Below, piece by piece: positions 9,623 through 46,520 of a stretch of 64,000 nt of DNA. The notes under the pieces were generated by a model. It did no database searches. It was given only the letters and a program-made list of their open reading frames with translations, and was not told where the DNA came from. Both the position numbers and the translations under genes were made by a program. Position 1 is the first letter of the stretch; each line of letters opens with the position of its first letter. Source of the DNA: Fischerella muscicola PCC 7414 (GTDB lineage: Bacteria; Cyanobacteriota; Cyanobacteriia; Cyanobacteriales; Nostocaceae); contig NZ_AJLK01000131.1 of the NCBI RefSeq assembly GCF_000317205.1, positions 1 through 64,000 of the forward strand, given 5' to 3'.

Positions 9623-10234
9623 TTAGTGGGAAGAAGCAGGTGTTTTTTGGATGATGTTGTCAACTAAACCGTAGGCTTTTGCTTCTTCAGCACTCATAAC
9701 AAAATCTCTTTCAGAATCGAGTTTAATTCTCTCTTCCGGTTGACCAGTGTTAGCAGCTATTATCCTATTCATAGTTTCTCTGAGATACACAATTTCTCTA
9801 GCTGCTACCTCAATTTCAGTTGCTTTTCCCTCGGTGCTTCCTGATGGTTGGCGAATTGTAATTCGCGCGTTTGGAAGAGCATGTCTTTTTCCTTTAGTAC
9901 CAGAAGAAAGCAAGAATGCTGCTGTAGCAGCCGCAGTACCAATGCATACAGTACACATGTCTGTACGCAGCTGAGTCATAGTGTCATATATAGCCAAGGC
10001 TGCTGTTAAGGAACCTCCAGAACTATTGATATACAATGTAATATCTTGCTCTGGGTCTTTCGCATCAAGAAATAGCATTTGTGCCACGATTAAATTCGCT
10101 ATTTCTTCTGTTAATTCCCCACGTATAAAGATAATTCTTTCTGCCAACAATCGGGAATAAATATCAAGCGGCATTTCTCCTTGTTGAGATGGTTGAATAA
10201 TAGTTGCAAAGCCGATTTGAGAAGAAGATTTCAT
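9623..10234 (-). CDS. ClpP-family protein lacking catalytic Ser and His (putative pseudoprotease)
   Basis: The 203-residue protein has a clear ClpP/crotonase fold: YINSSGGSLTAALAIYDTM, then CIGTAAATAAFLLSSGTKGKR, then the C-terminal SERD and AKAYGLVDNII. The nucleophile motif, normally A-A-S-M-G, reads A-A-A-T-A. The catalytic His, normally in M-I-H-Q-P, is replaced by Arg in ITIRQPSG. The third-residue region (SERDFVMS) is kept. It is not the standard cyanobacterial ClpR type, whose sequence differs around these motifs. I chose the ATG at 10234, with GGAG upstream, over a TTG at 10249. It ends 6 bp from the end of convergent hetI. Confidence 0.88.
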   Translation of the reverse strand: MKSSSQIGFATIIQPSQQGEMPLDIYSRLLAERIIFIRGELTEEIANLIVAQMLFLDAKDPEQDITLYINSSGGSLTAALAIYDTMTQLRTDMCTVCIGTAAATAAFLLSSGTKGKRHALPNARITIRQPSGSTEGKATEIEVAAREIVYLRETMNRIIAANTGQPEERIKLDSERDFVMSAEEAKAYGLVDNIIQKTPASSH

Positions 10235-10409
10235 AGCTACTATCTCCAAAAGGTAAGATTTGATTTTTAATAAACCACAGAGAACACAGAGAACGCGGAG
10301 GAAGAGTATTACTGCTAGTGGCAGTATTTGTGTTCCCGGAAATTGCTCAACTTATAGCCAGTGTTTATTGTTTGTATCAATAAAATTTTGTTCGACCATA
10401 TTTGATTTC

Positions 10410-10910
10410 CTAAGTATGAAATTTATCTGACCAGAGTTTGTAATACTGCCAAGCTTCTGTTGTATCCACCTCTGGCATATGCTTTTCCACTAGGGCAAAT
10501 GTTTCCTCTATCAATTCACCCAGCTGGTTAACCGCTAACTGAGGTTCTTCACAAAAAATCTGCTTGAGACGAAATGAGAGATTTTTAGGAGCGATCACCA
10601 ACTCGATGGTGATATGACCAAAATCACACTTGACGCCTTGAACAAAGTATTGTTCGACAATGTATCCTGCTTGGCGATCGCTAGCATGAAGTCTATAATC
10701 TGACCCCTGGTTGTATTCATACGCTGCTTTCAGTTCTTCATCAGATGGTAGTTCCCAGTAATAAATGCTCATGTCAATATCTGAGTAGGTATCAGCTTGT
10801 CCACGAGCAACAGAACCAGCGATACCAATAGCCCTAACTTTCGGATTAACTAGGTAGCTAACTGCGTTGCTGCGCGCCAAAGCAAGCAGTTGTTTGCTGG
10901 CGTCGTTCAT
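10410..10910 (-). CDS. Nucleotidyltransferase-domain protein
   Basis: The 166-residue protein opens with a pol-beta-type nucleotidyltransferase domain. The motif GSVARGQADTYSDIDM near residues 32-47 supplies the G-S and D-x-D residues that hold metal and NTP. Similar domains occur in aminoglycoside adenylyltransferases and MNT toxin-antitoxin proteins. The protein is short compared with stand-alone transferases of this group, so loss of a C-terminal domain is possible. No HEPN partner gene is adjacent. The target is unknown. Confidence 0.8.
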   Translation of the reverse strand: MNDASKQLLALARSNAVSYLVNPKVRAIGIAGSVARGQADTYSDIDMSIYYWELPSDEELKAAYEYNQGSDYRLHASDRQAGYIVEQYFVQGVKCDFGHITIELVIAPKNLSFRLKQIFCEEPQLAVNQLGELIEETFALVEKHMPEVDTTEAWQYYKLWSDKFHT

Positions 10911-10931
10911 TTTTCTCTTTCAGTAAATCTG

Positions 10932-11510
10932 CTATTTATTGTTACTAACAAGACTAACTAAGACCTTTGGCATTGTTTCATTTAGCCTATAGTCCCACCC
11001 ACCATTGAGAAAGGAACTGAGAATTACACTATCAAATGCTTCATACCTGCCAACAGGTATAGGCGATAACACGGTAGTGTGAGTAGTTCCTGCTGTAGAC
11101 TCATGCATAAAACGACCTTGCCAAGGTTGAGAAAGGCCCATTTGTTCATGACCAGACGCGCCATGGCGCGTCTGGTTAGGTTCTTGGCTCAATCCTTTAT
11201 GCTCAAGTTGCAGTTGAGTACCTCCATCTACAGGTTTTAATGTCCAAATCACAATTGAAGGCCGATGCATCATACTATCCTGCCAAGTGAAGGAAAGGCG
11301 CTTTGGTTCATCGAGTTCAATCACCTCACAATCAATGCTTTCACCTAGTCCTGCTAGTGATGGGTACAGAAATCGAAATTTATGTCCCACACGTGGCTCA
11401 AAGTCGTTTTCCATCAGCCATGCAGCAAGAGTGTGGCGGTTGGTGAGTACCTGCCAAACTCGTTGGGGAGGATAGGGATAGAAAACTTCCTTTTTCAAGT
11501 CTCGGAGCAT
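10932..11510 (-). CDS. SRPBCC (AHSA1-like) protein with palindrome insertion
   Basis: The 192-residue START/Bet v1-fold protein begins KEVFYPYPPQRVWQVLTN, typical of activator-of-Hsp90-ATPase-like SRPBCC proteins. It contains LSFTWQD and ends GWDYRLNETMPKVL. It overlaps the upstream ArsR gene by 16 bp, the usual ArsR-SRPBCC pairing. The coding frame runs through a perfect palindrome at 11151-11176, which encodes a short extra segment (NQTRHGASG) between two GLSQ motifs. The frame is kept, so the protein may still fold. The ligand is unknown. Confidence 0.85.
   Translation of the reverse strand: MLRDLKKEVFYPYPPQRVWQVLTNRHTLAAWLMENDFEPRVGHKFRFLYPSLAGLGESIDCEVIELDEPKRLSFTWQDSMMHRPSIVIWTLKPVDGGTQLQLEHKGLSQEPNQTRHGASGHEQMGLSQPWQGRFMHESTAGTTHTTVLSPIPVGRYEAFDSVILSSFLNGGWDYRLNETMPKVLVSLVSNNK
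11151..11176. repeat. GCCATGGC-core palindrome inside a CDS, copy 3
   Basis: A perfect 26-bp palindrome centred on GCCATGGC lies within the SRPBCC coding frame. It is related to the intergenic copies at 137-158 and 5531-5560, with CG in place of TG next to the core. Confidence 0.85.
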
Positions 11511-11830
11511 TGATTTTCCTCCAAATAGTTGCCAAGGGCATCTAGTTTTTCTTGCCAGAACTGCTCGTAAGTAGCGATCCAGTCAGATATCTGCTTCAGT
11601 GGCTCCGGGTTCAGCCGATACAGGCGCTGTCGCCCTGCTTTTCGCATTTGTACTAAGCCTGCTTCGCAAAGAACCTGCAAGTGCTGAGAAATGGCTGGCA
11701 AGCTCATCGCAAATGGCTCAGCCAGTTGTTTTACTGGTTGCTCGCCAGTACGTAACAGATCCAATAGCGCCCTGCGTGTGGGATCTGCGATCGCCACAAA
11801 TACATCGGCACTAGCAGCAGGTCTACTCAT
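11495..11830 (-). CDS. ArsR-family transcriptional regulator
   Basis: The 111-residue winged-helix repressor has the family blocks ADPTRRALLDLLRTGEQPV and LAEPFAMSLPAISQHLQVL (recognition helix region), then AGLVQMRKAGRQRLYRLN. It lacks the ELCVC-type metal box, so it belongs to the autorepressor-like group often paired with SRPBCC genes rather than to metal sensors. It heads the operon with the SRPBCC gene. Two inverted repeats in its promoter suggest autoregulation. Confidence 0.92.
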   Translation of the reverse strand: MSRPAASADVFVAIADPTRRALLDLLRTGEQPVKQLAEPFAMSLPAISQHLQVLCEAGLVQMRKAGRQRLYRLNPEPLKQISDWIATYEQFWQEKLDALGNYLEENQCSET

Positions 11831-11847
11831 TCAGATTAACCATATAT

Positions 11848-11901
11848 TTAAGCAAACGCTTAACTATTTCTATAATATATAAGCAATTGCTTAAATGTCA
11901 A
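11848..11901 (-). promoter_or_regulatory. Promoter with two ArsR-type operators
   Basis: On the minus strand a TTGACA (11901-11896) is followed after 18 bp by TATTAT (11877-11872). One inverted repeat, ATAAGC-AATT-GCTTAA (11879-11894), fills the spacer between them. A second, TTAAGC-N4-GCTTAA (11848-11863), lies between the -10 box and the arsR start. The layout fits repression by the adjacent ArsR protein. Confidence 0.7.
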
Positions 11902-12128
11902 CTCTTCAGCACATGTTCAGGTATTGGTAAAATTGGGAACTCTTGCCACAACTAAGGAAAGTATGGAAAAAAGGTCAAATTAACTCTTTCATTGAGCAGA
12001 TCCCTAAATTTAACATCACCTTCCATTAGCCAGAGGTAAGGCAATTTTGGGCTTTCTAGGATCGGTGAAGACACTCATGCATTTAACTACTAATCGCTTT
12101 CTGAAACAGTACATTTGTAAAATCCGAT

Positions 12129-12758
12129 ATGAAGGTTCCACCAGAAATTACTTATCGCAACGTAGATAAAACAGATGCTCTTGATGCTCTAGTTAATGAA
12201 AAAATAGGCAAGCTGGAACAAGTTTGTGATTACATCAGTAGCTGTCACATCGTAATTGAAAAAATTCACGATCGCCCCCGTTCTGGATCGCCGTACCGAG
12301 TGCGAATTGATATGACAGTACCCCCCGGTCATGAACTTGTAGCGGAAAGCAATCCACCAGATGTTAACCAGTATCCACCTTTGGAGTCGGTAATTCGAGA
12401 TGCTTTTCATGCAGCTACTCGCCAGTTGCGAGAACTCGCTAGGCAACAGCGTGAAAGTGATAAATCCAGAACCAACGATAGCGCCCAACAAACAACGGCA
12501 CTTGTCATCAAGTTATTTCCAGAACAGGGTTACGGCTTCCTCAAAACCTTGGATGGTGAGGAAGTCTACTTCCACCGTAATAGTGTACTTCATGATGACT
12601 TTGACCGTTTAGAAATTGGTACGGGTGTGCATTGCTTTGTGGAACTCGGTGAAGAAGGACCCCAAGCCAGCACGGTGAAGATAGTTGACAAACCCGGCGT
12701 TAGTGCTGGGAAGGCAGAACAAACGATTGTTGAACCCCCATTGGGGTGGCAAGAGTGA
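12129..12758 (+). CDS. HPF/RaiA ribosome-associated protein with cold-shock domain
   Basis: The 209-residue protein is a fusion. Residues 1-100 form an HPF/RaiA (S30AE) domain (VPPEITYRNVDKTDALDALV, then SCHIVIEK). Residues 120-190 are a cold-shock OB fold (VIKLFPEQGYGFLKTLDG, then EVYFHRNSV) with the RNP-like aromatic motifs. The first domain binds the 30S mRNA channel in related hibernation factors and the second binds single-stranded nucleic acid. Such fusions occur in several bacterial groups. It is monocistronic and followed by a hairpin terminator. Confidence 0.88.
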   Translation: MKVPPEITYRNVDKTDALDALVNEKIGKLEQVCDYISSCHIVIEKIHDRPRSGSPYRVRIDMTVPPGHELVAESNPPDVNQYPPLESVIRDAFHAATRQLRELARQQRESDKSRTNDSAQQTTALVIKLFPEQGYGFLKTLDGEEVYFHRNSVLHDDFDRLEIGTGVHCFVELGEEGPQASTVKIVDKPGVSAGKAEQTIVEPPLGWQE

Positions 12759-12815
12759 CACCGTTGATAAATCAGTGAACAGTGATCAGTGAACAGTTAT
12801 CAGTTATTAAGACCC

Positions 12816-12849
12816 AGATCCCCGACTTCTCATCAGAAGTCAGGGATCT
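12816..12849 (+). terminator. Hairpin of the AGATCCCCGACTT family, possible terminator
   Basis: Arms AGATCCCCGACTTCT and AGAAGTCAGGGATCT enclose a CATC loop. They are followed by TGTCTTTT, which could end the raiA-type transcript. The same hairpin occurs at 49214-49250, 57857-57889 and 60626-60658, so it is also a dispersed repeat. Confidence 0.55.
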
Positions 12850-12887
12850 TGTCTTTTACGAATGATTTAGGAATGCTATATTTCCTT

Positions 12888-13892
12888 TTAGTTATTTGAG
12901 GTCTGGTTATCCGTGTCTTCTAGCCATTCCCGTATAGATTCCATACCTTCTTCTAGTGTTATTTTCGGTTCATATCCTAGCTGGGTTTGTGCTTTTTTGA
13001 TGGAGTAAGCATGAGGACTGGTGGAAAAATCTACAGCTGCTGGAAAAATAACAGGTTGTTTACCCAAAATTCTCATTCTTAACCACTCTAAGCGAATTAG
13101 AGATTTGACAATTGGTGCTGGTAGAGACAATGGCGGGGGTACATTTCCAGCTTTAGCCAAACGTGTGTAGTATTCTTTCCAAGAAGTTTCCTGTCCATCA
13201 GAAATATTGAAAGCATCTCCGTACGCCTCTTTTTCTATAGCAAGGAAGATTCCGTCGATTAAATTATCTATATATAAATGATTCATAACTCCCCCTCCAG
13301 CATCTGGTATGACAAATCTTTTTTGGCGCATTAGTGAAAGGGGACGGACAACCCAAGGGTTGCTTCTTGGCCCATAAACAGCCGTCGGTCTGATAATGAT
13401 CACCCCAAAATCTGGTGGTGCGTTCAGCTTCAAGATTTCTGCTTCACTTTCTATTTTCGTCAAAGAATAAGGATTATTTTCGCTGCGGAGTGGCCCTTCT
13501 TCTGTAATTTGATTGGCATAGGTGAAGCCATATACTATGACGCTTGAAAGATGGACAAAAGTCTTGACACCAGCGTTTATGGCTGCTCTGGCTATATTAA
13601 GAGTACCACCAACATTGACATTACGAAACTCCTCGAGCGATCCTCCTTCTTTGACAAGGGCGGCTGTATGCAGAATAATATCTACTCCTTGACAAGCCTC
13701 CTGTGCGACAACCGGATCACAGATGCTACCAACAATCACTGTTGCGCCTAGACTCTCGGCTATTTTGGCGTTATCAGGATCATTTTCTATTCCTCTAACA
13801 TGCATTCCTCGTGCGATCGCGAGTTCTGTAGTTCGCAAGCCAATAAATCCACCTATTCCTGTGATCAGGATGGTTTTATTTGTGAGGTTCAT
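12888..13892 (-). CDS. NAD-dependent epimerase/dehydratase (HgdA paralogue)
   Basis: This extended-SDR sugar-nucleotide epimerase-like protein has 334 residues from the ATG at 13892, which has an AGGA box upstream; the longer frame adds an unsupported leader. It has the Rossmann motif TGIGGFIG, the active-site HLSSVIVYG and YSLTKIESE (Tyr-x3-Lys), and a C-terminal substrate domain. It is closely related along its whole length to the hgdA product at 36699-37706. It lies just downstream of hglB, separated by a terminator. The natural substrate is not known; a glycolipid sugar role is inference. Confidence 0.88.
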   Translation of the reverse strand: MNLTNKTILITGIGGFIGLRTTELAIARGMHVRGIENDPDNAKIAESLGATVIVGSICDPVVAQEACQGVDIILHTAALVKEGGSLEEFRNVNVGGTLNIARAAINAGVKTFVHLSSVIVYGFTYANQITEEGPLRSENNPYSLTKIESEAEILKLNAPPDFGVIIIRPTAVYGPRSNPWVVRPLSLMRQKRFVIPDAGGGVMNHLYIDNLIDGIFLAIEKEAYGDAFNISDGQETSWKEYYTRLAKAGNVPPPLSLPAPIVKSLIRLEWLRMRILGKQPVIFPAAVDFSTSPHAYSIKKAQTQLGYEPKITLEEGMESIREWLEDTDNQTSNN

Positions 13893-14314
13893 AAATTTAG
13901 ATATCCTTTGTGAAAAAAGAGAGTATTTGTTCTTAATCTCATGAACAAATATTCTAGATGTCAATTTCTAAGTATTTTTTTGCAGGGAATGAGACACGTA
14001 AAATTTGAGTAGAAGTGAAATTTTTTTGTCCTCCTACTCATGTTAAAGAGACCTCAAATTAATGCAATCTGTCAGGTGGCATATCTCTTGAATAGGTTTT
14101 TAGAAAATATGCTCACGAGAACATTTTATTGATTTTAATAAGTATTTAAATTCACATATTTTTATTAATTAGCTAAATATAAAAACCCGTTGAAGCGGGT
14201 TTGAAATATTAATAAAACTATGAGCAAAATCATTGTTTTTGAAATCGAACACAGATGCACACAGATAAACACTGATAGACGCAGATAGATTATCTGTATG
14301 CATTTGTAGATTTG
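13893..14314. other. Gap between hglB and the epimerase gene
   Basis: This AT-rich gap holds the hgl operon terminator (14176-14202) and one arm of the CACAGATG element near 14238-14290. I see no gene in it. In Anabaena the hetN gene lies on this side of hglB, and it is absent here. Confidence 0.6.
14176..14202 (-). terminator. Rho-independent terminator of the hgl operon
   Basis: On the minus strand AAACCCG and CGGGTTT form a 7-bp stem with a 6-nt loop, followed by TTTTT-type residues. It lies about 110 bp after the hglB stop. Confidence 0.75.
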
Positions 14315-15823
14315 TTATGCTACATTCAGGAAGCCATTCTGAAGCAAGTAAGTAGAATAGGTCATAAACAATTGTGTATCCATTGGTGGGCAAACAATAC
14401 CACTACCAGCTAGTGCATTTAGTGTTGCTTCACAATTAATGATTGGTCTTCTACTTTGCAGGTACAAATCGGGGATTGTGATTTGTTCTTCTGACCAACG
14501 TTCTAATAAGAAAGGCCGTAGGGTATATAAAGGATTTTCTGCTGAAGAGATATCATTAATTAACTTAGCTTGCCATTCTTGATAAGGAATTGCTTCAATA
14601 GCAAAACCAAGAGAATGCATCCAGTCAAGTAAATTAGATAAGGGAACAGATGCGGGATGCTGGAGGTGAAAAGCTTTGCCTAGAGATTCTTTTTGTTTGG
14701 ATAAATAAACAATAGCTTTACTGACATAATCAACAGGTGATGCATCCAATCTATAATCTACGTCTGGGAAGTATCCCATCTGGATACAACCTTTAATGAC
14801 TAAGTTAATAAAATCATCTGTATTGCAAGCACCTGTTTTGCTATCTCCTGCAATTAAAGGTGGTCTGTGGATAGTTACGGGAAGACCTCTGTCACGCGCA
14901 ATTGTGACTAATTTTTCTGCTACCCATTTCGTTTGAGAATAACCCAGAAAAATGCCTTGCCAATGCTCAAAGCTATCATCTTCTTTGACAACTTTGCCAG
15001 CATAAAATGGCGATTCAAATACTGCGACACTGGAAACATAATGCACTGGTTTGACTTTAAAAAGACATGCCAAGCGTAATACTTCTTGTGTTCCTAAAAC
15101 ATTCGGTGTTTTGAGTGCAGAATAGGGATATACATAGTTTAGTGTTGCCGCACTGTGATAAATACTATCAAGATTAGCAGCTAGCATTTCAAAGGCTTCT
15201 TTGCTAATTCCTAATAGTGGTTGAGATAAATCACCGATAACTGGGATAATTCTGGGACGGAAAACTTCATTCCAAAGTCCATAACTTTGTAAGTTTTTCT
15301 TGAGTTTTTGCTTACCTTCTTCTGGATGAGAAGCACGTACTAAACAATAAATATCAGCATTGGTTTGTTGTAGAAGTTCATAGATTAAAAAAGCTCCTAA
15401 AAAGCCTGTTCCACCAGTTAAAAATACGTTCTTTGGTTCAGTTGTAAACACAAAAGAACTAGATGTAGGGCAAATATTTGAGTCGAGAACTGCTTCAGCA
15501 CTTAAATCTAAAACAGGAGTAGTATTTTTAACCGCTACAGTGTCTTCTAAATCTGCTGCTAATTCTTGTGATTCTTCAGCTAAACGCTGTGATAACGATG
15601 CAATAGTTGGATAATGCCATAATAGTGTCGGAGCTACTTTAAATCCGAGCATTTTTTCTGCTTTGGTGACAAGTAGCATCGCCTGAGTAGAATCTAAACC
15701 ATAGGTATCTAATGGTTGTTCTACATCAATTTGACTTGGTTCTGTTTTGATAACTTCAGCAAGATTAGATAGCAACCAAGCTTGAATTTCTGGTGCTGTT
15801 AAAGATTTTTTTGATATCATCAT
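14315..15823 (-). CDS. hglB: Heterocyst glycolipid synthase HglB (HetM): ACP plus thioester reductase
   Basis: The 502-residue protein has an N-terminal acyl carrier domain (about 10-90; phosphopantetheine site [11 protein letters not shown]). A thioester-reductase SDR domain covers about 130-490 ([19 protein letters not shown], then [10 protein letters not shown], and a Y-x3-K pair in [12 protein letters not shown]). In Anabaena HglB/HetM is needed for heterocyst glycolipids. The domain logic is reductive release of the very long hydroxy-acyl chain as a fatty alcohol. Its start lies 2 bp past the stop of the PfaD-type gene, so translation is probably coupled. It is the last gene of the operon. 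Confidence 0.93.
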
Positions 15824-34119: not shown

Positions 34120-35319
34120 ATGACAGTAGACAAGAAAAACTTGTTCTTCGCAAAACCTGTAACTATGTGGGGAATTTTTTTGACGGTTTCTATTGCTTTT
34201 GCTACTGGCTTAGTGTCTTTCTTCAGTTTGTTCTTGCTTCGTTCTCAAGTTCAAACTGAACCACAAAAGCTTACTAAGGCTGCGCCCGCAAGAGTTGCAG
34301 TGACTGCTTTAGGGCGGATAGTACCTGATGGCGAAATCACTCAACTGTCTGCTCCGAGTTCATTAACTGGTGTACGAGTAGAAAAACTGTTAGTGAAAGA
34401 AGGAGATCAAGTAAAAGCAGGTCAAGTAATAGCATTGCTGGAAGGATACACCCGTACTCTTGTAGCTGTACAACAAGCCTTAGACAGTGTAACGGTTGCT
34501 CAAGCTAAGCTAGCACAGGTAAAAGCTGGGGCGAAAACAGGTGATATTGATGCCCAAAAAGCAGCGATCGCTCAAGTAGAATGGCAATTACAAGGAGAAG
34601 TCAACACTCAGCAAGCAGCGATCGCTAGTCTTCAAGCCCAAGTACAAAATGCTGAAACCGAAAATAATCGCTATCAACAACTATATAGAGAAGGTGCTAT
34701 TTCCGCGTCTACAGCAGAGAGCAAAGCTTTACAACTCAAAACATTGCAACAACAACTAGCTGAAGGTAAAGCAGCCCTAACCCGCACTGTTGATACTCTC
34801 CAAGAACAACTAAGAGAATCTAAAGCCAGACTAGGAAGTATAAAAGAGGTACGTCCCACAGACGTACGATTAGCAGAAGCCGAACTCAAGAGTGCAATGT
34901 CTGCTGTGAAACAAGCACAAGCCCAACATGAACTAACTTACGTAAAATCTCCTGTAAGTGGTAAAGTTTTGAAAACTCACGCCAAATCAGGAGAAGTAGT
35001 CGCCACTAGCGGTATTGTAGAGATAGGCAAAACTTCTCAAATGTGCGCGATCGCAGAAGTTTACCAAACAGATATTCAGAAAGTACGTATAGGTCAAAAA
35101 GCGACCATTACCAGCACCGCCTTCCCTGGTAAAAAATTGCAAGGAACCGTTAGCGAAATCGGTTTACTTGTTGACAGACAAAATATCTTAAGTATTAATC
35201 CAGGCGCAGATACAGACCGCAGAGTCGTGCAAGTAAAAATTCGCATTGATAACCCAGCAGATAGTCAACTAGTCTCTGGTTTAACTAACTTACAGGTAGA
35301 TGTGGCTATTAAAATTTAG
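34120..35319 (+). CDS. hgdB: Membrane fusion protein HgdB (DevB-like)
   Basis: The 399-residue periplasmic adaptor of an ABC exporter has an N-terminal membrane anchor (about 13-35) and a lipoyl/barrel-sandwich segment (VRVEKLLVKEGDQVKAGQVIALLEG). A long alpha-hairpin coiled coil covers about 115-260. The second half-motif reads LTYVKSPVSGKVLKTHAKSGEVV. The order hgdB-hgdC-hgdA, divergent from hglE, matches the Anabaena locus where HgdB and HgdC affect the heterocyst glycolipid layer. It probably links HgdC to a TolC-type channel. Confidence 0.85.
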   Translation: MTVDKKNLFFAKPVTMWGIFLTVSIAFATGLVSFFSLFLLRSQVQTEPQKLTKAAPARVAVTALGRIVPDGEITQLSAPSSLTGVRVEKLLVKEGDQVKAGQVIALLEGYTRTLVAVQQALDSVTVAQAKLAQVKAGAKTGDIDAQKAAIAQVEWQLQGEVNTQQAAIASLQAQVQNAETENNRYQQLYREGAISASTAESKALQLKTLQQQLAEGKAALTRTVDTLQEQLRESKARLGSIKEVRPTDVRLAEAELKSAMSAVKQAQAQHELTYVKSPVSGKVLKTHAKSGEVVATSGIVEIGKTSQMCAIAEVYQTDIQKVRIGQKATITSTAFPGKKLQGTVSEIGLLVDRQNILSINPGADTDRRVVQVKIRIDNPADSQLVSGLTNLQVDVAIKI

Positions 35320-35375
35320 CTACTCCCAGCAGTTAAATCACCCAAAAAACAAAGTAGCTAAGCTGGTTTTTTACT

Positions 35376-35424
35376 ACCGACCACTAACCACTAACTACCA
35401 ATTACCAATTACCAATTACCAAAT
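35376..35424. repeat. ATTACCA heptamer tract before hgdC
   Basis: ACTAACC and ATTACCA heptamers occupy the whole spacer between hgdB and the hgdC start. Confidence 0.75.
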
Positions 35425-35425
35425 C

Positions 35426-36604
35426 ATGGTGTTTAAAATTCCTCTGGCATGGTTGCAACTAGTCAGAAACAGAATTCGTTCTCTAGTAGCTGTGGCTGGC
35501 ATTGGTTTTATTGTGATTTTGATGTTTATGCAGCTTGGATTTCAAGATGCTCTTTACTCCAGTGCTACCCAAGTGCATCGTAATCTCCAAGGCGATTTAT
35601 TTTTAGTCAGCTCTCAATATAAATCTTTGACAGCAATCCAAAGCTTCTTTCGGACTAGATTGTATCAAGCTTTGGGTTTTGATGGTGTAGAGTCAGTTAG
35701 CCCCATATACTTGGGATTTGCTAAATTTAAAAACCCCGAAAACGGTGAGAAATATTCAATTTATGTGATTGGTTTTGAACCAGGAAGACCAATCATGAAC
35801 ATGCCAGAGGTGGAGAAGAATATCGATAAAATTAAAGTGCCTGACGTTGTACTTTTTGACCGTAATTCCCGCCCAGAATTTGGGCCAGTTGCCCAGAAAT
35901 TTGTTCAGGAAAATACCGAACAGATACTAGAAATATTTCCCTTTGATTCATTAAGAGGTTATAGAGTTAGAGTTGGTGGCTTATTCGGTTTAGGTCCATC
36001 CTTCGGTGTGGATGGAAACTTGATAGTCAGTGACACAACTTTTTTGAGGATATTTCCTAACAGCCGTCCCTCAGAAATGATTGATGTAGGTGTGATTTCA
36101 CTGCAACCAGGTGCTAATCCCCAAAAGGTAAAAGCAGAATTGCGAAGTAATTTACCTGACGACGTGAAACTTTTTACTCACCAAGAGTTTATTGATTTCG
36201 AGAAAGAATATTGGGCGACAAGAACACCAATTGGTTTCATCCTCAATCTTATGCTTTCAATGGCTTCAGTTGTTGGTATTGTGATTGTTTATCAAATTCT
36301 TTACAGTAATATCTCCACTCAACTCGTCGCTTATGCAACATTAAAAGCCATCGGCTATGAAAATAATTACTTATTGAATGTTGTATTTCAACAAGCTTTC
36401 ATATTATCAGTACTGGGTTATATTCCAGGGTTTTTTATCTCCATCTTCTTATATGATTTTGCTATGGAAGCAACTAAACTACCCATTATGATGAGTACTC
36501 AAAATGCAGTAATTGTTTTCATTTCAACAATATTAATGTGTATGACATCTGGTGCATTAGCTATTAACAAACTCCGCTCCACAGACCCAGCAGATATTTT
36601 TTAA
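35426..36604 (+). CDS. hgdC: ABC exporter permease HgdC (DevC-like)
   Basis: From the ATG at 35426 it has 392 residues; the longer frame translates the heptamer tract. It has an N-terminal membrane helix (about 17-38), a large extracytoplasmic domain, and three C-terminal helices typical of FtsX/MacB-type permeases (FILNLMLSMASVVGIVIVYQ and two more). It pairs with HgdB. No ATPase gene (DevA type) follows, so the energising subunit must be encoded elsewhere. The role inferred from Anabaena is glycolipid-layer assembly. Confidence 0.87.
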   Translation: MVFKIPLAWLQLVRNRIRSLVAVAGIGFIVILMFMQLGFQDALYSSATQVHRNLQGDLFLVSSQYKSLTAIQSFFRTRLYQALGFDGVESVSPIYLGFAKFKNPENGEKYSIYVIGFEPGRPIMNMPEVEKNIDKIKVPDVVLFDRNSRPEFGPVAQKFVQENTEQILEIFPFDSLRGYRVRVGGLFGLGPSFGVDGNLIVSDTTFLRIFPNSRPSEMIDVGVISLQPGANPQKVKAELRSNLPDDVKLFTHQEFIDFEKEYWATRTPIGFILNLMLSMASVVGIVIVYQILYSNISTQLVAYATLKAIGYENNYLLNVVFQQAFILSVLGYIPGFFISIFLYDFAMEATKLPIMMSTQNAVIVFISTILMCMTSGALAINKLRSTDPADIF

Positions 36605-36698: not shown

Positions 36699-37706
36699 AT
36701 GGATCTCAAGCATAAAACTATCCTCATCACAGGAATTGGTGAATTTATTGGTTTGCGTACTGCTCAATTAGCGATCGCGAAAGAAATGAAAGTCTGTGGA
36801 ATGCAAAGTTCCGCAGATAAAGCTAAAAAAGCACAGAATTTAGGCGCTAAAGTCATCATTGGTAATATCACCGATTCGGCTAGTGCTGAATTAGCTTGCC
36901 AGGGAGTAGATATAGTTGTACACACAGATGAAATTGCTAAAGAAGGTGGTTCACTAGAAGAATTTCGCAAAGTAAATGTTGATGGTACTCTCAACATAGC
37001 TAAAGCAGCCAAAAGTGCTGGTGTCAAGACCTTTGTTTATATCTCCAGTGCCTTAGTTTATGGCTTTAATTATCCGAAAAACATCACAGAAGAAGGGCCA
37101 CTCTCAGGCGACAATAATCCTTATTGTCAGACAAAAATAGAAGCTGAAAAAGCACTTTTGGAACTGAATAATCCACCCGATTTTGGCACCATTATTCTGA
37201 GAGCAGGTGATGTTTACGGCCCAGGTAGTATTCCTTGGATAGTCCGACCATTACTAATGATGCGGCAAAAATTATTTGCCTATGCAGGTGATGGCATGGG
37301 AGTAATCAATCACGTATATATTGATAACCTAGTCACAGCCATATTTTTGGCAATAGAAAAAGAAACCCACGGCGAAATCTTTAACATCACCGACGGGCAA
37401 GAAACTACTTGGAAAGAATATTTTACTCGCCTAGCAGAAATGGCAGGTTTACCTGCACCTTTCTCACTACCAAAAGACGAACTCAAACTATTTCTCAAGC
37501 TACGCTACCAGGGACAGAAACTCTTTCGCAAACAGGCTGATATTTTACCAGAAGCTGTAGATTTTATGACTCGTCCCTATGCTTATTCAATTGAAAAAGC
37601 GCGCAAAAAACTAAGCTATGAACCCAAAATTAACTTAGAAGAAGGAATGTGTTTAACCCAAGAATGGCTGAGAAAAACAGACCTTAAGAAAATGGTTAAT
37701 AGTTAG
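36699..37706 (+). CDS. hgdA: Epimerase HgdA (UDP-galactose 4-epimerase-like)
   Basis: The 335-residue extended-SDR protein has the Rossmann motif TGIGEFIG, a serine in YISSALVYG and YCQTKIEAE (Tyr-x3-Lys), followed by a sugar-binding C-terminal half. In Anabaena HgdA is an epimerase needed for normal heterocyst glycolipid composition. It follows hgdC after a heptamer spacer. A close paralogue lies at 12888-13892 at the other end of the hgl cluster. The third Rossmann glycine position reads E-F (GIGEFIG) against GGF in the paralogue, a modest difference. Confidence 0.85.
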   Translation: MDLKHKTILITGIGEFIGLRTAQLAIAKEMKVCGMQSSADKAKKAQNLGAKVIIGNITDSASAELACQGVDIVVHTDEIAKEGGSLEEFRKVNVDGTLNIAKAAKSAGVKTFVYISSALVYGFNYPKNITEEGPLSGDNNPYCQTKIEAEKALLELNNPPDFGTIILRAGDVYGPGSIPWIVRPLLMMRQKLFAYAGDGMGVINHVYIDNLVTAIFLAIEKETHGEIFNITDGQETTWKEYFTRLAEMAGLPAPFSLPKDELKLFLKLRYQGQKLFRKQADILPEAVDFMTRPYAYSIEKARKKLSYEPKINLEEGMCLTQEWLRKTDLKKMVNS

Positions 37707-37980: not shown

Positions 37981-38463
37981 ATGGCAAAAACAATGTTAGC
38001 GAAAGCCTCTAAAGTTTTGACATTTTTACTTCCAAGTTTGGTAAGTATTAGTCTATCTAATATAGTACGGGCAGAACCTACAACTACACTGACTGTAGTA
38101 GTAAATGGTATCAAACACCAAAAAGGTCAGATTTGCCTGAAAGTATATGCCAATGAAAAAGGATTTCCTCTCAGTGAAACTAGCGGAATACAAAGTGGCT
38201 GTATCAAAATCACAGGAAGTTCTGTAAAAAAACAATTTTTTGGTTTGAAACCGGGAAATTATGCAGTTGCTGTAGTTGATGATCAAAATGGAGATTACAA
38301 ACTTAACCGAGATTTTTTAGGCATTCCCCAGGAAGGTTTTGGGCTTTCCAATAATCCAACTATATCAGTCATAACTGGTACACCAAAATTTAATAAGGCG
38401 AGTTTTCCATTGCAGAAAAATACAACTATCAACATCGAAATGAAGTATGGACTAGATCCATAA
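37981..38463 (+). CDS. Secreted DUF2141-type protein
   Basis: The 160-residue protein has a signal peptide (hydrophobic stretch to about residue 30, cleavage near VRAEP). A DUF2141 beta-sandwich follows: VVVNGIKHQKGQICLKVY, GLKPGNYAVAVVDDQNGD and LNRDFLGIPQEGFGLSNN are the family blocks. The function is unknown. It sits between hgdA and two glycosyltransferase genes on the same strand, so a periplasmic role in glycolipid-layer deposition is a reasonable guess. Confidence 0.85.
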   Translation: MAKTMLAKASKVLTFLLPSLVSISLSNIVRAEPTTTLTVVVNGIKHQKGQICLKVYANEKGFPLSETSGIQSGCIKITGSSVKKQFFGLKPGNYAVAVVDDQNGDYKLNRDFLGIPQEGFGLSNNPTISVITGTPKFNKASFPLQKNTTINIEMKYGLDP

Positions 38464-38573: not shown

Positions 38574-39833
38574 ATGAAAGAATTGGCGATATCTCTGTCT
38601 AGAATGTTGCTAAGTTGGCTGGTCATTCAAACATTGGTTGCACTAGCTTTTTTATGGACATTAAAAACCCATCGCAGAAATTCCTTGCCAGATGAACAAC
38701 TTCCCAAAACAGCAGTTATTCTTTGTCTACGGGGAGGCGATCCTTTTCTAGCCAATTGTTTAGAATCACTTCTGCAACAAAATTATCCAAGATATGATTT
38801 AAACATAGTTATTGATAACCGTGAAGATCCAGCTTGGAAAATTGCCAGCGAGACGATAGCTGCGCTAGGTGCAACCAACGTCCAAATTAGCCCTTTGAGT
38901 ATCAGACGATATAACTGTAGCCTCAAATGCAGTTCTATAGTGCAAGCTGTCTCAGAATTGGATGAATCCTACAAAGTAGTTGCATTAGTAGATGCCGATG
39001 CAGTGGTTCATCCCAACTGGTTACGCGAATTAGTCAGTCCTCTAGCTGATCCAAAAGTAGGGGCAACTACTGGTAATCGCTGGTACTTACCCACAGGTAA
39101 ATATTGGGGTTCGCTGTTGCGGTATTTCTGGAATTCCTCTGCTGTGGTGCAAATGAGTCTCTACCACATTCCTTGGGGGGGTAGTTTGGCACTGAAAACA
39201 GAAGTGATTCGCGAAACCGAACTACTAGAAAGATGGGCAAGATCATATGCTGACGATACTATAATCCGCACAGTTCTGGCAAATTATGGATTCCAGGTAA
39301 AGTTTGTACCATCTCTGTTGATTCTCAATCGTGAAGAGTGCGACTTACCAAGACTATTTGACTGGATGAAACGTCAAATGTTATCTTCGCGCCTGTATCA
39401 TCCTCAATGGTGGGCGGTAATTGCTGACGCATTGCAAACAGTACTACTTCCAAATCTGCTGTTGGTGTTGTCTGTAGCTGCATTATGGACGCAACAATGG
39501 GATGCTGCTACTCTAGCTTTTGCTAGCTATAGTGGCTATATAGTAGCATTGATGTTGTTGGCGATCGCTCTCGAAATTGGCGCAAAACCTATAATTCAGC
39601 ACAACGCCAAGGTCAAAACCAAACTATCACCAGCCACGATCATCAGAATGCTATTTGGCATACCTCTAACACACTGGTTTTATGGGTTGGCATTAATATT
39701 GTCTTTTTGGATGCCAAAAGTTACCTGGCGCGGCGTCACCTACCAAATTAAAGGGCCTTGGCACATCCGCCTCATTCAATACCGCCCCTATCAAAAATTA
39801 GATCAACCCATTGATAGCAAAGTATCTCTTTGA
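38574..39833 (+). CDS. GT2/GT21-like membrane glycosyltransferase
   Basis: The 419-residue protein has an N-terminal membrane helix (about 10-30). The GT-A catalytic core has DNREDPAW, VALVDADAVVHPNW (D-x-D) and YADDTIIR as the acidic motifs, with KRQML near the R/QxxRW position. Three or four C-terminal membrane helices follow. The layout resembles ceramide glucosyltransferases. It is a second transferase in the hglT neighbourhood. The acceptor is unknown; it could act on the same long-chain diols or on another envelope lipid. Its start follows a C-rich tract directly. Confidence 0.85.
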   Translation: MKELAISLSRMLLSWLVIQTLVALAFLWTLKTHRRNSLPDEQLPKTAVILCLRGGDPFLANCLESLLQQNYPRYDLNIVIDNREDPAWKIASETIAALGATNVQISPLSIRRYNCSLKCSSIVQAVSELDESYKVVALVDADAVVHPNWLRELVSPLADPKVGATTGNRWYLPTGKYWGSLLRYFWNSSAVVQMSLYHIPWGGSLALKTEVIRETELLERWARSYADDTIIRTVLANYGFQVKFVPSLLILNREECDLPRLFDWMKRQMLSSRLYHPQWWAVIADALQTVLLPNLLLVLSVAALWTQQWDAATLAFASYSGYIVALMLLAIALEIGAKPIIQHNAKVKTKLSPATIIRMLFGIPLTHWFYGLALILSFWMPKVTWRGVTYQIKGPWHIRLIQYRPYQKLDQPIDSKVSL

Positions 39834-40035: not shown

Positions 40036-41307
40036 ATGAAAAAACAACCTCTTCGCATTGCACTCATTACAGGATTGTATGCGCCATTTTTGACAGGGGT
40101 TTCCATCGCCGTACACCAACGGGTGCGCTGGTTACTACAACAAGGACACGAAGTATTTCTTATCCACCCAGAAATCAACGACCAGTATCCTGAAGAGGTT
40201 GGTAGTCGTCCGATGGCGGGACTCAAAGAACTCCAATCTTTCCCCAAATTTTCTTCCTATGCATTTCCCACCCAACCACTGATATTTTATAAATCTCTTC
40301 CCCAACCATTACATTATCGCCATTGGAGCGATACCAAATTATTGGAGAACTTTAAACCAGATATCGTGGTAGTTGAAGAAGCACCACAAATGCGAGGATT
40401 TTACTCACTTTATTTACAAGGTTACGGTCGCCCTGTAGGTATTGAATACGCTAAAAAAACTGGCACACCAATCATATCCCTATTCCACACCGATATCGTT
40501 GCTTATATTCGCTATTACATGGGCAATCAATTTTTTAGCTTTATTCGTCCCATGTTACCCATGTTAATCAAGCAATTCAGTGAAGCTTACGACTATAACT
40601 TCTTTCCTTCCCGGGAACAGCTTGAGAAATACAAAAACTTGAAATCCCAACGCAGCGAATACTTACCTTATCAAGGCATAGATTGCCAAAAATTTAATCC
40701 TGCCAATATCAGCTACAATCCCATCCCCAACGATAATCGTCCCACCCTTTTGTTCGTTGGACGCATTGCTCCCGAAAAGAGTGTCATTCAACTTCTAGAT
40801 ATATACCCAATCGTCGCTGCTAAAATACCTGATGCCCATCTAGTGATCGTCGGTAGTGGCCCCCAGCAAGAAGAAATCCGTCAACGTGCAGCTAAATTTG
40901 GCAAAGGTGTAACTGTTTGGGGAGAATCCCACGGTACAGAACTATTGGGATGGTATGCACGAGCCGATGTTTTTGTCAATCCATCCGCTACCGAAAACTT
41001 CTGCACCTCCACCAACGAAGCCTTAGCCTCGGGAACTCCCGTAGTTGCAGTCAAAGCACCCTCAACCTCAGAACAAGTAGTCCCTGGGCGCAACGGCTTT
41101 TTAGCTCAACCGAATAGTCCTTGGGATTTTGCCAACAAAGTAATTAGAATTTTAGAAAATCCCGACCTCAAAGAAGAAATGTCTCTCCACGCTCGCTTTT
41201 CCGTTCTCGAATATGATTGGTCTGTATGTATGCAAAAGTTTGAACAGAGACTATATCAGATAGTGGAAAAATCAAATAATTTAGCAGCAACACCTATTTC
41301 AAGTTAG
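40036..41307 (+). CDS. hglT: Heterocyst glycolipid glycosyltransferase HglT (GT4)
   Basis: The 423-residue group 1 (GT4) transferase has an N-terminal acceptor domain (LRIALITGLYAPFLTGVS). A C-terminal nucleotide-sugar domain has LLFVGRIAPEKSV and ATENFCTSTNEALASGTPVVA with the second Glu of the EX7E motif. In Anabaena hglT lies in this gene order after hgdBCA and adds glucose to the heterocyst alcohols. The protein has no membrane segment and probably acts at the cytoplasmic face. Of the two transferases here, the GT4 type and position make this the better hglT candidate. Confidence 0.8.
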   Translation: MKKQPLRIALITGLYAPFLTGVSIAVHQRVRWLLQQGHEVFLIHPEINDQYPEEVGSRPMAGLKELQSFPKFSSYAFPTQPLIFYKSLPQPLHYRHWSDTKLLENFKPDIVVVEEAPQMRGFYSLYLQGYGRPVGIEYAKKTGTPIISLFHTDIVAYIRYYMGNQFFSFIRPMLPMLIKQFSEAYDYNFFPSREQLEKYKNLKSQRSEYLPYQGIDCQKFNPANISYNPIPNDNRPTLLFVGRIAPEKSVIQLLDIYPIVAAKIPDAHLVIVGSGPQQEEIRQRAAKFGKGVTVWGESHGTELLGWYARADVFVNPSATENFCTSTNEALASGTPVVAVKAPSTSEQVVPGRNGFLAQPNSPWDFANKVIRILENPDLKEEMSLHARFSVLEYDWSVCMQKFEQRLYQIVEKSNNLAATPISS

Positions 41308-41653: not shown

Positions 41654-43195
41654 CTAACCCATCCTTTCCAACAAATGCTTACCGACTCGTAATGCATTTG
41701 CCATAATCGTCAGTGATGGATTCACAGCAGAACTTGAGGGGAAAAAGCTACTATCAACAACATAAAGATTATCGACATCGTGGGTGCGACAATTAAGATC
41801 AAGTACAGAATTTCTAGGGTGTTCACCAAAACGACAAGTCCCACATTGATGTCCAACTTCTTTCAAAGTCATTTTTTGAGGGAAGACAACAGAAATATGT
41901 CCTTGATGAGATGGTAGTTTTATTGATTGTAAAACTGCAACCCAGCGTTTCATGAAACGATTAAAGGTTTGTTCATTATTCTTGGTATAATCAATATAAA
42001 TTTGCTCACCTTTAACATATACACGGTTATTAGGATTTGGTAAATCTTCAGTAATTAGCAACCAAGAAATAGAATGGGTTGCTACTGCTTGGGCAATAAA
42101 TTTGGGTGTTAAAGGTGGTGCATAAGCAGCAACTCTATTTGTAGTGACATTCCCTAGCAATTGGACGCTTCCCATAGGGAAAGGGAAACCTTTTTCACCC
42201 CAATAAAAGTCATTGACAGCTATTGTTTTGGGAAAAACTGTAGGATTAAATTTTGTAGATAAGGCCATGACTACCCCAAATTTATGAGCCATGTAATTTC
42301 GCCCTACTAGATTAGAGCTATTGGCTAATCCATTGGGATGTCGATCATTGGCAGATTGCAGTAATAATACTGCTGAGTTGACTGCACCACAAGCGAGAAC
42401 AACAATATCTCCCGAAAAAATATGTCGTTTACCTGCAATTTCTGCTACTACTCCGTTAACTTCTCGACCTGATGCACTTGTATGCAGACGTAAGACTTTG
42501 GCTTGAGTAATTAAAGTCACTTTTTGATTAGCTATGGCTGGACGCACACAGTTAATATCAGCATCAGCTTTAGCATTTATAAAACATGGAAAACCATCAC
42601 AAGTATCACAACGAATACAAGTACTTAAAAAACGATTAGTTTCATTGAGCTTAATACCAAGGGGTAGATAAAACGGATGTAAGCCTTTGTCTTTTAAACC
42701 ATTATTAATTTCTTGAATGTATGGTTCGTGGCTAATAGGAGGAAAGGGATAGTCTTCACTGATTTGAGGTTCGGTAGGATCTAGATGTCGTTGACCATGT
42801 ACTTCGTATAGTTTTTCAGCTTCTGTATAATATGGGGCAAAATCTTGATATTTTAATGGCCATTCGGGAGAGATACCATCTTGATGAAAAACTCTATTAA
42901 AGTCGTGTTCACGAAATCTAAATAATGCTCCACCATAAAATTTAGTGTTACCACCAACATAGTAGTGTGTGACTGGACGAATTACTTTACCATGTTTGTC
43001 GTACCAAACTTCCTGGGGGCGATAACATTCTTTTTGAAAAATTAGCCGAGAATCCCAATTTGCTTTTTCTTTAGGTACGAAAGAGCCTCTTTCTAGCAGC
43101 AAAATTTTCTTTCCACTTGCTGCTAATTTATATGCTAGCGTTCCACCACCAGCACCCGTACCAATGATGATGACATCATAATGACTATCAGCCAT
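41654..43195 (-). CDS. GMC-family FAD-dependent oxidoreductase
   Basis: The 513-residue flavoprotein starts with the ADP-binding motif IIIGTGAGGGTLAYKLA. It has the substrate-domain CIRCDTCDGFPCF cysteines, and ends with GHQCGTCRFGEHP and the SSFFPSSSAVNPSLTIMANA block of the GMC C-terminal domain. GMC enzymes oxidise alcohols, sterols or sugars. It is convergent with hglT. Heterocyst glycolipids include keto-ols as well as diols, so oxidation of a chain hydroxyl is a testable idea. The start is ATG at 43195. Confidence 0.88.
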   Translation of the reverse strand: MADSHYDVIIIGTGAGGGTLAYKLAASGKKILLLERGSFVPKEKANWDSRLIFQKECYRPQEVWYDKHGKVIRPVTHYYVGGNTKFYGGALFRFREHDFNRVFHQDGISPEWPLKYQDFAPYYTEAEKLYEVHGQRHLDPTEPQISEDYPFPPISHEPYIQEINNGLKDKGLHPFYLPLGIKLNETNRFLSTCIRCDTCDGFPCFINAKADADINCVRPAIANQKVTLITQAKVLRLHTSASGREVNGVVAEIAGKRHIFSGDIVVLACGAVNSAVLLLQSANDRHPNGLANSSNLVGRNYMAHKFGVVMALSTKFNPTVFPKTIAVNDFYWGEKGFPFPMGSVQLLGNVTTNRVAAYAPPLTPKFIAQAVATHSISWLLITEDLPNPNNRVYVKGEQIYIDYTKNNEQTFNRFMKRWVAVLQSIKLPSHQGHISVVFPQKMTLKEVGHQCGTCRFGEHPRNSVLDLNCRTHDVDNLYVVDSSFFPSSSAVNPSLTIMANALRVGKHLLERMG

Positions 43196-43684: not shown

Positions 43685-44518
43685 CTACTGATGTGAACGT
43701 CTTTCGGCTAGCATTTGATTTTCTGCACAGGTTTGATTGAGATTGGTTAAACCAATCCAACGGTAAATAGCATCTCCAAATTCTGGAAAAAGTTGTACAT
43801 TAGAAAATAGAAGTCTTGTGAGTAACCCGTCAAGGATTACTTCTGCTTTGTTGTTTTTGATGGCATCTATAACTGCGATCGCTACGGTTTTTGGTTCAGA
43901 AACACGCGCTAATTTGGGTGCTGGTAAGCCAAATTTCAAATACATCCCTGCTTTTGTATATCCTGGACAAATCACAGAAACGCCTACGTTAGTATCAATT
44001 AATTCCTGCCGCATCGCGTCTGTCCACATAATTAAACCAGCTTTACTGGCAGAATAAATGCTGTTATAAGGGGCTCCCTTTTTTCCAGAACCAGAGGAAA
44101 TATTGACAATGTGACCACTATTACGTTCTAACATATTCGGCAATACTAACCGAGTTAATTCCATTCCTGCTAGCAGATTAGTTATTAGTATTGACTGGAT
44201 ATCTTGGAGAGAGTAATTTTGAAAAGGTCGGTATTTTTCAATTGCAGCATTATTAATCAAAACATCAATTCGACCTGCATTTTGATTAATTTGCTGGACA
44301 AGTAATGGTAATTCTTCTAATTTGCTGATATCAAAGGGAATGCTAATGTATGTACCACCAGCAACTTCTACTTCAGCACGGATATTTTCTAATTTTTCTT
44401 GGGAACGAGAAACACCAACTACAGTTGCTTTTTCTTTCGCTAGCGCCCGAGCAATAAATGCTCCTATACCACCCGCAGCACCAGTTAAAACTACTGTCTT
44501 ACCTGCAAGATTTTTCAT
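43685..44518 (-). CDS. HetN-like short-chain dehydrogenase/ketoreductase
   Basis: From the ATG at 44518 it has 277 residues; the longer frame translates a repeat. It is a classical SDR with TGAAGGIGAFIARALAKE (cofactor site), NNAAIE, a catalytic serine in NISSGSG and YSASK (Tyr-x3-Lys). Across its length it resembles HetN, the heterocyst-pattern SDR, including the C-terminal IYRWIGLTNLNQ. The HetN inhibitory pentapeptide RGSGR at about residue 132-136 here reads RNSGH. It may be a fatty-acyl ketoreductase of the glycolipid pathway or a diverged HetN. It is the only hetN-type gene in the window. Confidence 0.85.
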   Translation of the reverse strand: MKNLAGKTVVLTGAAGGIGAFIARALAKEKATVVGVSRSQEKLENIRAEVEVAGGTYISIPFDISKLEELPLLVQQINQNAGRIDVLINNAAIEKYRPFQNYSLQDIQSILITNLLAGMELTRLVLPNMLERNSGHIVNISSGSGKKGAPYNSIYSASKAGLIMWTDAMRQELIDTNVGVSVICPGYTKAGMYLKFGLPAPKLARVSEPKTVAIAVIDAIKNNKAEVILDGLLTRLLFSNVQLFPEFGDAIYRWIGLTNLNQTCAENQMLAERRSHQ

Positions 44519-45284: not shown

Positions 45285-46520
45285 TTATTGTGGAATTTGT
45301 CCCGAAAGTTTTTGAATTTGTCCAGAAAAGTAATCTTCTTCGTACTTTAATTGTTGGGCTACTTCCAACCCTTTTTGGAAAGCATTTAGTGCTTGCGGAT
45401 ACTCTTTGCGTTCCAAGTGCATTTTTCCGATTAGATCATAAGCATTCATCAAACCATAAAAATTCGAGGCTAATTGTTGAGTCTGTACAAGAATTTCGCT
45501 AGCTTGTAACGCCTCTTGTATTTGTCCTTGGGAACGGTAGAGCGCGATTAATTTTTGCAAAGCTTCACCTGCACGCACATATTGTTGTGATTGCCAAGCA
45601 ATTGTGTAAGCTTGTTGATAGTTATTGAAAGCTTCTTGGAGAAGATTAGGATTTTCCTTTGCCAAGGATTCATAATCTGAACCGATCGCTAGTTTTAAAG
45701 CTGGTAGTTGAGTCGGATTATTCTGTCTTTGGTATATTTCTGTGAGTCGGTTGTGTATTTCTATTGCTTGCTGGGGTTGTTTCCCTTGTTCGTAAATGTA
45801 GGCTAATTTTTGCAAGTATACTAGCTCATTGACACTATCACCCCTAGCAGTAGCTAATTTTAACAACTCCCGATAAGTTGCTCCTGCTTTGCTGTAATCA
45901 AACCAACTCAGATGTACTTCCCCGATAGTCTGTAAAATTTGTACTTCTTTAGCTGTATCTTGCTGCTGTCGCGCCGCAGCTAAAACTTGCTCATAAACTT
46001 CCACTGCATTTTGAGGCGAGCGCACTTGTCGGTAAGCTAATCCTAGTGCTTGCAATAACTCTAAATCATTAGTTTTTTGAGACTGTACCTGCTTTTGAAT
46101 TGCTTGTAATCGCTGAGTAATGTATTGTACCTCTGGGCGATTGCTTTTTTGATAAGCTACAGCACCCACCCTTCCTAGTGCTTGCACCTCTTTCACAGCA
46201 CCCAAATATCGACGCAACCGCAGTTCCCGGTTCCAGATATCAAATGCTCCCACCTCATCACCTGCTTGCAATTTCGCCGTAGCTTGTTGATTCAACTTAT
46301 CCAACTCCACCTCCAACTGTTGCTGTTCACTTACAGATAACGGCTGTTTGTCTTTGTCTGGATTCCGTGGCAACAGTGGATCGGGTGTGGTAATTTCTAA
46401 GGGTGATGGCGGAAACTCATCTGGTGGTTGAGGCTTTTTAGTAGCCGCCATAGTTAAGGAAGTGCCAAATAACCACAAAGCAGTAGTAGCAGTAATTGTC
46501 ACACTTAAGCGTTTGAGCAT
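45285..46520 (-). CDS. Secreted tetratricopeptide-repeat protein
   Basis: The 411-residue protein has a signal peptide (hydrophobic stretch ending near SLTMA), a Pro-rich segment (EFPPSPLEITTPDPLLPRNP) and then about seven TPR-like helical pairs (for example LGLAYRQVRSPQNAVEVYEQ and LIGKMHLERKEYPQALNAFQ). TPR proteins act as assembly scaffolds. Partners cannot be read from the context. The start is ATG at 46520; upstream sequence carries an ACAGAGGCACAGAGGACA repeat. Confidence 0.85.
   Translation of the reverse strand: MLKRLSVTITATTALWLFGTSLTMAATKKPQPPDEFPPSPLEITTPDPLLPRNPDKDKQPLSVSEQQQLEVELDKLNQQATAKLQAGDEVGAFDIWNRELRLRRYLGAVKEVQALGRVGAVAYQKSNRPEVQYITQRLQAIQKQVQSQKTNDLELLQALGLAYRQVRSPQNAVEVYEQVLAAARQQQDTAKEVQILQTIGEVHLSWFDYSKAGATYRELLKLATARGDSVNELVYLQKLAYIYEQGKQPQQAIEIHNRLTEIYQRQNNPTQLPALKLAIGSDYESLAKENPNLLQEAFNNYQQAYTIAWQSQQYVRAGEALQKLIALYRSQGQIQEALQASEILVQTQQLASNFYGLMNAYDLIGKMHLERKEYPQALNAFQKGLEVAQQLKYEEDYFSGQIQKLSGQIPQ

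Follow-up and report, generated by a model that had tools for sequence, protein, structure and literature searches.

Heterocyst glycolipids serve as geological markers of nitrogen fixation. A stretch of 64,000 nucleotides from Fischerella muscicola PCC 7414 (hereafter the window) contains genes of the hgl island and, beyond a glycosyltransferase gene that we read as hglT, a gene for an SDR (SDR1, Table 1). A preliminary description presented this SDR as the best HetN-like protein, with R-N-S-G-H at the position of the inhibitory pentapeptide RGSGR, and concluded that either pattern maintenance works without HetN in this organism or the protein has only an enzymatic role. Is SDR1 then a HetN that has lost its signal, or is it a different enzyme? 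We consider it probable that SDR1 is a classical SDR oxidoreductase from a clade sister to HetN, which acts together with an adjacent GMC-family dehydrogenase on a heterocyst glycolipid and does not supply a HetR-inhibiting peptide.

Table 1. Positions of the features discussed in the text (window coordinates unless a contig or locus is given)
Feature	Position	Strand	Remarks
HetI (4'-phosphopantetheinyl transferase)	8894..9616	+
hglB-hetI interval, without hetN	9623..13964	.	six annotated genes: ClpP, nucleotidyltransferase, AHSA1, ArsR, RaiA/cold-shock, epimerase
HglB (ACP + thioester reductase)	14315..15823	-	TIGR01746
DevB/DevC-like exporter genes	34120..36604	+	HlyD-type 34120-35319, FtsX/MacB-type 35300-36604
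Epimerase/dehydratase	36699..37706	+	hgl island
DUF2141 protein	37981..38463	+	hgl island
Family-2 glycosyltransferase-like protein	38574..39833	+	hgl island
Glycosyltransferase group 1 (orf40036), read as hglT	40036..41307	+	reading from family and position
GMC-family FAD dehydrogenase	41654..43195	-	conserved partner downstream of SDR1; sequence match; Cys 193, 196, 199, 204
SDR1 (HetN-sister SDR), 277 aa	43685..44518	-	translation, PF00106, tree placement
Codons for R132-N133-S134-G135-H136	44111..44125	-	turn between predicted helix 104-132 and strand 135-140
TPR protein	45285..46520	-	frequent SDR1 neighbour (within 9.5 kb of 32/59)
Three PatS-like micro-ORFs, 12-22 aa, ending RGSGR-stop	C37:24154-24171; C131:74259-74276; C167:69628-69645	+; -; +
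SDR2 - glycosyltransferase - SDR1 - GMC - UDP-galactopyranose mutase - methyltransferase - two glycosyltransferases	L141:2614-16906; L069:909-10603		same order in Hydrococcus sp. Prado102 (L069) and a member of the window's family (L141)

SDR1 and the HetN clade

The translated gene reads E131-R132-N133-S134-G135-H136 (ERNSGH), as the preliminary description had reported for residues 132–136. The protein matches PF00106 (adh_short) with an E value of 5.8e-56 and contains the TGxxxGxG and N-S-Y-K signatures of classical SDRs. The same description held that hetN is missing between hglB and hetI, and that an epimerase, RaiA, ArsR and other genes fill this space; our survey of genes and adh_short matches agrees, since none of the 42 adh_short places in the genome falls into the interval.

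In a survey of the family, 94 of 192 genomes contained a match to SDR1 at E ≤ 1e-60, with the best 13 candidates per genome scored. From these, 128 proteins from 93 genomes (128 of 129 places; a G017 fragment covering residues 137–276 was left out) entered a tree built by a "quick" method, with SH-aLRT as the only support value. A scan of named genomes with narrow peptide patterns returned 40 loci, of which 16 (L056–L070, L087) are HetN-like with at least 54% identity and the rest are distant SDRs. Since the HetN of PCC 7120 did not come up among these 40 loci, HetN was defined by hglB-hetI synteny and the tree was calculated without the PCC 7120 protein. No HetN model appeared among the best 25 NCBIfam families listed.

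An SDR tree had been proposed in the preliminary description, and it places SDR1 in a clade of its own: 59 proteins form one branch (SH-aLRT 100), and the sister of this branch is a clade of 46 rows (SH-aLRT 99) that holds every HetI-linked gene of the tree and is called the HetN clade here. The two are united at SH-aLRT 94, below the star level. Removal of the six motif columns leaves the 59-row split at SH-aLRT 100. One protein, L213, is an SDR1 by best BLAST match, yet the tree places it outside the clade; in the split of 59 versus 69 rows it belongs to the 69. Residues G13, G17, G19, N114, S142, Y155 and K159 are invariant in all 59 rows, and the dN/dS of the SDR1 gene (0.08–0.12 versus seven relatives) shows purifying selection at the protein level. 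Most likely, therefore, SDR1 is to be classed as a classical SDR of the HetN-sister clade and not as HetN.

The motif RGSGR occurs in 16 of the 128 rows, none of them in the SDR1 clade and all 16 among the 46 rows of the HetN clade. HetI is encoded within 9.5 kb of each of these 16 rows, and four further HetI-linked rows are without RGSGR. In the stretches examined, none of the 59 SDR1 rows has HetI or HglB within the same distance. The smallest clade with all RGSGR rows comprises 21 proteins, and the five without the motif read ERRSGH, ERGSGH, ERGNGH and, in two cases, KRDSGH. On the tree the trait needs three changes, a count that fits gain or loss alike. Residue 136 in the HetN clade is His in 29, Arg in 16 and Lys in one of the 46 rows.

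SDR1 resembles the HetN of Anabaena sp. PCC 7120 in being a classical SDR, here from the sister clade, in having glycolipid genes around it and in the position of the turn; the hetI-linked RGSGR relatives are about 54–60% identical to it. From the HetN type as defined by synteny, SDR1 differs in its separate clade, in its place outside the hglB-hetI interval, in the absence of RGSGR and in the GMC gene downstream.

A candidate redox pair with a GMC dehydrogenase

In 56 of the 59 SDR1 loci, including the window, a GMC gene on the same strand lies downstream at a distance of up to 2.5 kb. Among the three loci without it, 31 bases separate the L104 gene from the end of its contig, and L109 and L146 have room. 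The GMC loci were chosen via their SDRs, so all of these counts refer to GMC genes beside SDR1 candidates. By sequence, the closest solved relatives of the GMC protein are the FAD glucose and fructose dehydrogenases: it aligns with the former (PDB) along almost the whole protein (E 1.3e-37), and it matches the latter at E ~5e-26. The four cysteines listed in Table 1 are conserved in 95% or more of the 58 GMC rows, of which 57 are distinct because the window's protein is present twice; they lie in a segment that aligns with the Cys-rich stretch of FAD glucose dehydrogenase. This likeness, which is one of sequence match, suggests that the segment may bind an Fe-S cluster.

The hglT-like gene is found within 9.5 kb of 39 of the 59 SDR1 loci versus one of the 69 other rows, with some loci on short contigs. 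From this gene neighbourhood, a role of SDR1 as a glycolipid enzyme appears most likely, within the limits set by a link of 39 in 59 and by the two loci that have room for a GMC gene but lack one. One of the two enzymes, SDR1 or the GMC protein, would turn a hydroxyl group on the heterocyst glycolipid or its precursor into a ketone, and the other would reduce a ketone; in this way the pair would set the keto/alcohol state or the stereochemistry of the chain or of the sugar moiety. We infer the substrate, the direction of each reaction and the absence of a patterning role for SDR1. The pair is thus a candidate for the keto/alcohol or headgroup variation of heterocyst glycolipids.

A lipid-linked sugar epimerase of this kind exists in mycobacteria, where the flavin oxidoreductase DprE1 and the SDR reductase DprE2 work in series via a keto sugar on the lipid. 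DprE1 belongs to another flavoprotein family than the GMC partner. As a more speculative extension, which we hold only tentatively, SDR1 and the GMC protein might oxidise and re-reduce a glycolipid hydroxyl (on sugar or chain) in the DprE1/DprE2 manner, the GMC enzyme being oxygen-independent and possibly an Fe-S protein, the pair being shared with a second glycolipid cluster, and SDR1 remaining an enzyme whereas its sister HetN would have been recruited separately to supply a peptide. An oxygen-independent, possibly Fe-S-containing GMC dehydrogenase would, if true, suit the microoxic heterocyst.

The second cluster suggests a different reading, namely that the SDR1-GMC pair acts on a secondary metabolite or glycolipid that has nothing to do with heterocysts, and owes its place beside hglT to history alone. 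In L141, a ketosynthase is followed by a TubC_N protein, SDR2, an MGDG-synthase-like glycosyltransferase, SDR1, GMC, UDP-galactopyranose mutase, a methyltransferase and two glycosyltransferases. Hydrococcus sp. Prado102 (L069) has the order of L141 from SDR2 to the last two glycosyltransferases, and the stretch examined begins just before. This cluster contains the same SDR1-GMC pair as the window, with its SDR2 two genes upstream of SDR1; it differs in not lying beside hglT, in encoding the mutase and the methyltransferase, and in an SDR1 that belongs to a subgroup apart from that of the window. A survey of the class, with the best six candidates per genome scored, found matches at E ≤ 1e-60 in 14 of 388 genomes, six of these outside the family. 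In the enlarged tree, the SDR1 clade grows to 61 rows (SH-aLRT 100), taking in the second SDR of L069 and also L305. Both have a GMC gene beside them and group with the seven rows from the family whose SDR1 lies in this type of cluster (SH-aLRT 98), apart from the rest. This grouping favours a role outside heterocysts. Against it stands the hglT-like gene near 39 of the 59 SDR1 loci, the window among them, and we judge this reading unlikely. The six other added rows from outside the family form a separate group (SH-aLRT 98), and an HglB-like gene is present at L310.

We also considered from the Hydrococcus cluster whether the SDR1-GMC pair is older than heterocysts. This idea was dropped, as the Hydrococcus SDR1 and L305 nest among the seven SDR1 rows (98); for the second cluster, the sequences make transfer between lineages appear as likely as an old origin.

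The published HetN of Fischerella

According to PMC5812504, RGSGR is present only in a subset of HetN homologues, all from Section IV, and the HetN of branching cyanobacteria is without it; the Fischerella group presumably counts among the branching forms of Section V. In PMC9284123, the HetN of UU774 and PCC 9339 reads DQGNGH and that of Fischerella sp. NIES-3754 (BAU07447) reads ERNSGH, and the altered motif, along with a patS that was not found, is tied to the irregular heterocysts of hot-spring strains. PMC11804610 reports 13 of 19 queried hgl-island genes as conserved, with hetN among the variable ones; it also found that the gene content of the island is not directly related to which glycolipids predominate, a point against the role proposed here for SDR1. 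PMC12756182 describes patS and hetN as unconserved across heterocyst-forming cyanobacteria, while PatX goes with HetR. The missing RGSGR and the missing hetN in the hgl island are thus already known. In the open literature we did not find the ERNSGH protein described as a HetN paralogue, nor its separate clade and GMC partner.

These reports bear on a further interpretation, by which SDR1 represents the lineage's orthologue of HetN, relocated beside hglT and deprived of RGSGR, so that pattern maintenance is weakened or HetN-free, which is how the hot-spring strains are read in PMC9284123. The NIES-3754 protein fits this interpretation, since it was published as a HetN with a lost motif and reads the same ERNSGH. 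It is also consistent with F. thermalis PCC 7521 (G008), in which the SDR1 gene is the sole match at E ≤ 1e-60 (best 13 candidates scored), so that a best-match search for HetN would pick SDR1. G008, one of two genomes of the window's genus in the set, was matched to the record of this strain through L097, all 63 of whose sampled 60-mers recur in L062. From its hexapeptide, however, the NIES-3754 protein is probably an SDR1 orthologue, and the tree points to the sister clade. Moreover, 15 genomes contain members of both clades, four of these with an RGSGR HetN. Because the two types co-occur, SDR1 and HetN are paralogues. Together with the separate clade and the presence of both genes in the genome of PCC 7414, this co-occurrence largely refutes SDR1 as the HetN orthologue, which we regard as improbable. 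The published ERNSGH "HetN" of Fischerella is most likely a different paralogue, and its turn then says nothing on the loss of pattern control.

The HetN-clade gene of PCC 7414 lies at C178:9721-10542, is 59% identical to SDR1 and reads ERGNGH. The description of SDR1 as the best HetN-like protein thus holds within the window but not for the genome, in which the C178 gene is a member of the HetN clade. Twenty-six places of the genome match SDR1 at E ≤ 1e-10, and a six-frame search of these loci for R[GN][ST]G[RHKQ] recovered RNSGH and, in a different frame, a single RGSGQ, but no RGSGR. A HetN with RGSGR elsewhere in the genome, a possibility raised in the preliminary description, was accordingly not found at these loci. 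In a genus mate (L163, G060), the HetN-clade gene reads ERGSGH, one residue off ERGSGR. The C178 gene is located (C178:1-11808, L164) near a tryptophan-halogenase-like protein, a TubC_N protein and two PapA/condensation-type proteins, perhaps parts of a halogenated lipid pathway; the epimerase and DUF2141 genes also occur a second time in this stretch.

The turn at residues 132–136 and other possible sources of RGSGR

In a structure model of SDR1 (mean pLDDT 78, from 16 sequences only), residues 132–136 make up the turn that connects a helix to the following strand (Table 1). The alignment for this model took 15 of the 16 HetN-like loci from the named-genome scan, with L066 excluded. When the 26 SDR places of the genome, SDR1 included, are aligned, Gly occupies position 135 in every sequence, while position 136 is Arg in ten and His in six, 16 of the 26 in total. 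A likeness to RGSGR is therefore what one would predict for an SDR, and taken alone it is no sign of a lost signal: the RxSG[HR] appearance of SDR1 is not special, and R-N-S-G-H is a normal SDR helix-to-strand turn. As this position is an ordinary SDR turn and SDR1 belongs to a separate clade, the view that RNSGH is a changed RGSGR does not hold. It is highly improbable that SDR1 still signals through an excised RNSGH recognised by a co-evolved local HetR: the turn is fairly conserved in the SDR1 clade (R132 and N133 in 47, S134 in 51 and H136 in 56 of 59 rows), but other SDRs of this genome share its G-[HR]-I-x-N look, and canonical RGSGR peptides appear to be encoded still, with no obvious change of the HetR ligand.

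Such peptides would come from other frames. One PatX-like frame (C201:27885-27901, minus strand, L317) is 104 codons long, has a hydrophobic N-terminus and contains PYRGSGR, in agreement with the proline-preceded Y/HRGSGR that PMC5812504 describes for "alternative PatS", called PatX in later papers. Three PatS-like micro-ORFs end in RGSGR followed by a stop (Table 1); they are unusually short compared with the Section V PatS of mostly 65–115 aa in the same paper, and the search for patS in related strains came out negative in PMC9284123. Over some 100 bases, the stretch on C37 is 77% similar to that on C131, and relatives of all three are present in both genus mates. A frameshift upstream of RGSGR in the C167-type frame of F. 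thermalis PCC 7521 (L292) separates its ATG from ERGSGR. The TCCGGA promoter motif was found once each near two of the micro-ORFs and not upstream of the third.

As a plain pattern, RGSGR is uninformative in this genome (142 matches versus 157 for the reversed control), and 100 of these matches were listed and about 70 read, so that the RGSGR frames reported here are a lower bound. The pattern that includes the stop gave 20 matches versus 12 in the control, and that with a leading Tyr two versus none. With a leading His there were five versus seven, and no RG(S/T/A)GR frame among the five. The other RGSGR-stop frames (L253, L258, L259 and L261) were set aside by judgement, for want of a near in-frame ATG or on account of repeat-like DNA.

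These observations make PatX-like and PatS-like frames the more likely origin of inhibitory RGSGR peptides in this organism. Since the PatX-like frame and the three micro-ORFs carry putative RGSGR signals, pattern control can probably do without RGSGR from HetN. SDR1 in turn most likely has only an enzymatic role, because it belongs to a sister clade with no RGSGR in 59 rows, is intact at the catalytic residues checked and keeps its GMC neighbour. Of the two alternatives offered in the preliminary description, pattern maintenance without HetN or a purely enzymatic SDR, both thus look likely, although the reason given for them, a changed RGSGR, fails.

The C131 micro-ORF lies 10 kb to the right of the window. 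Within the window, the 14-mer CGGGGATCTGGGCG at 49209-49222 (minus strand) is found at six of the 100 plain-pattern RGSGR matches listed for this genome and is probably part of a dispersed repeat. Several sensor-kinase/response-regulator frames between 53092 and 57750 look broken or overlap, beside stretches that code for repeated sequence of the type P-H-H-P-I-T-P-S-P-H-L-P.
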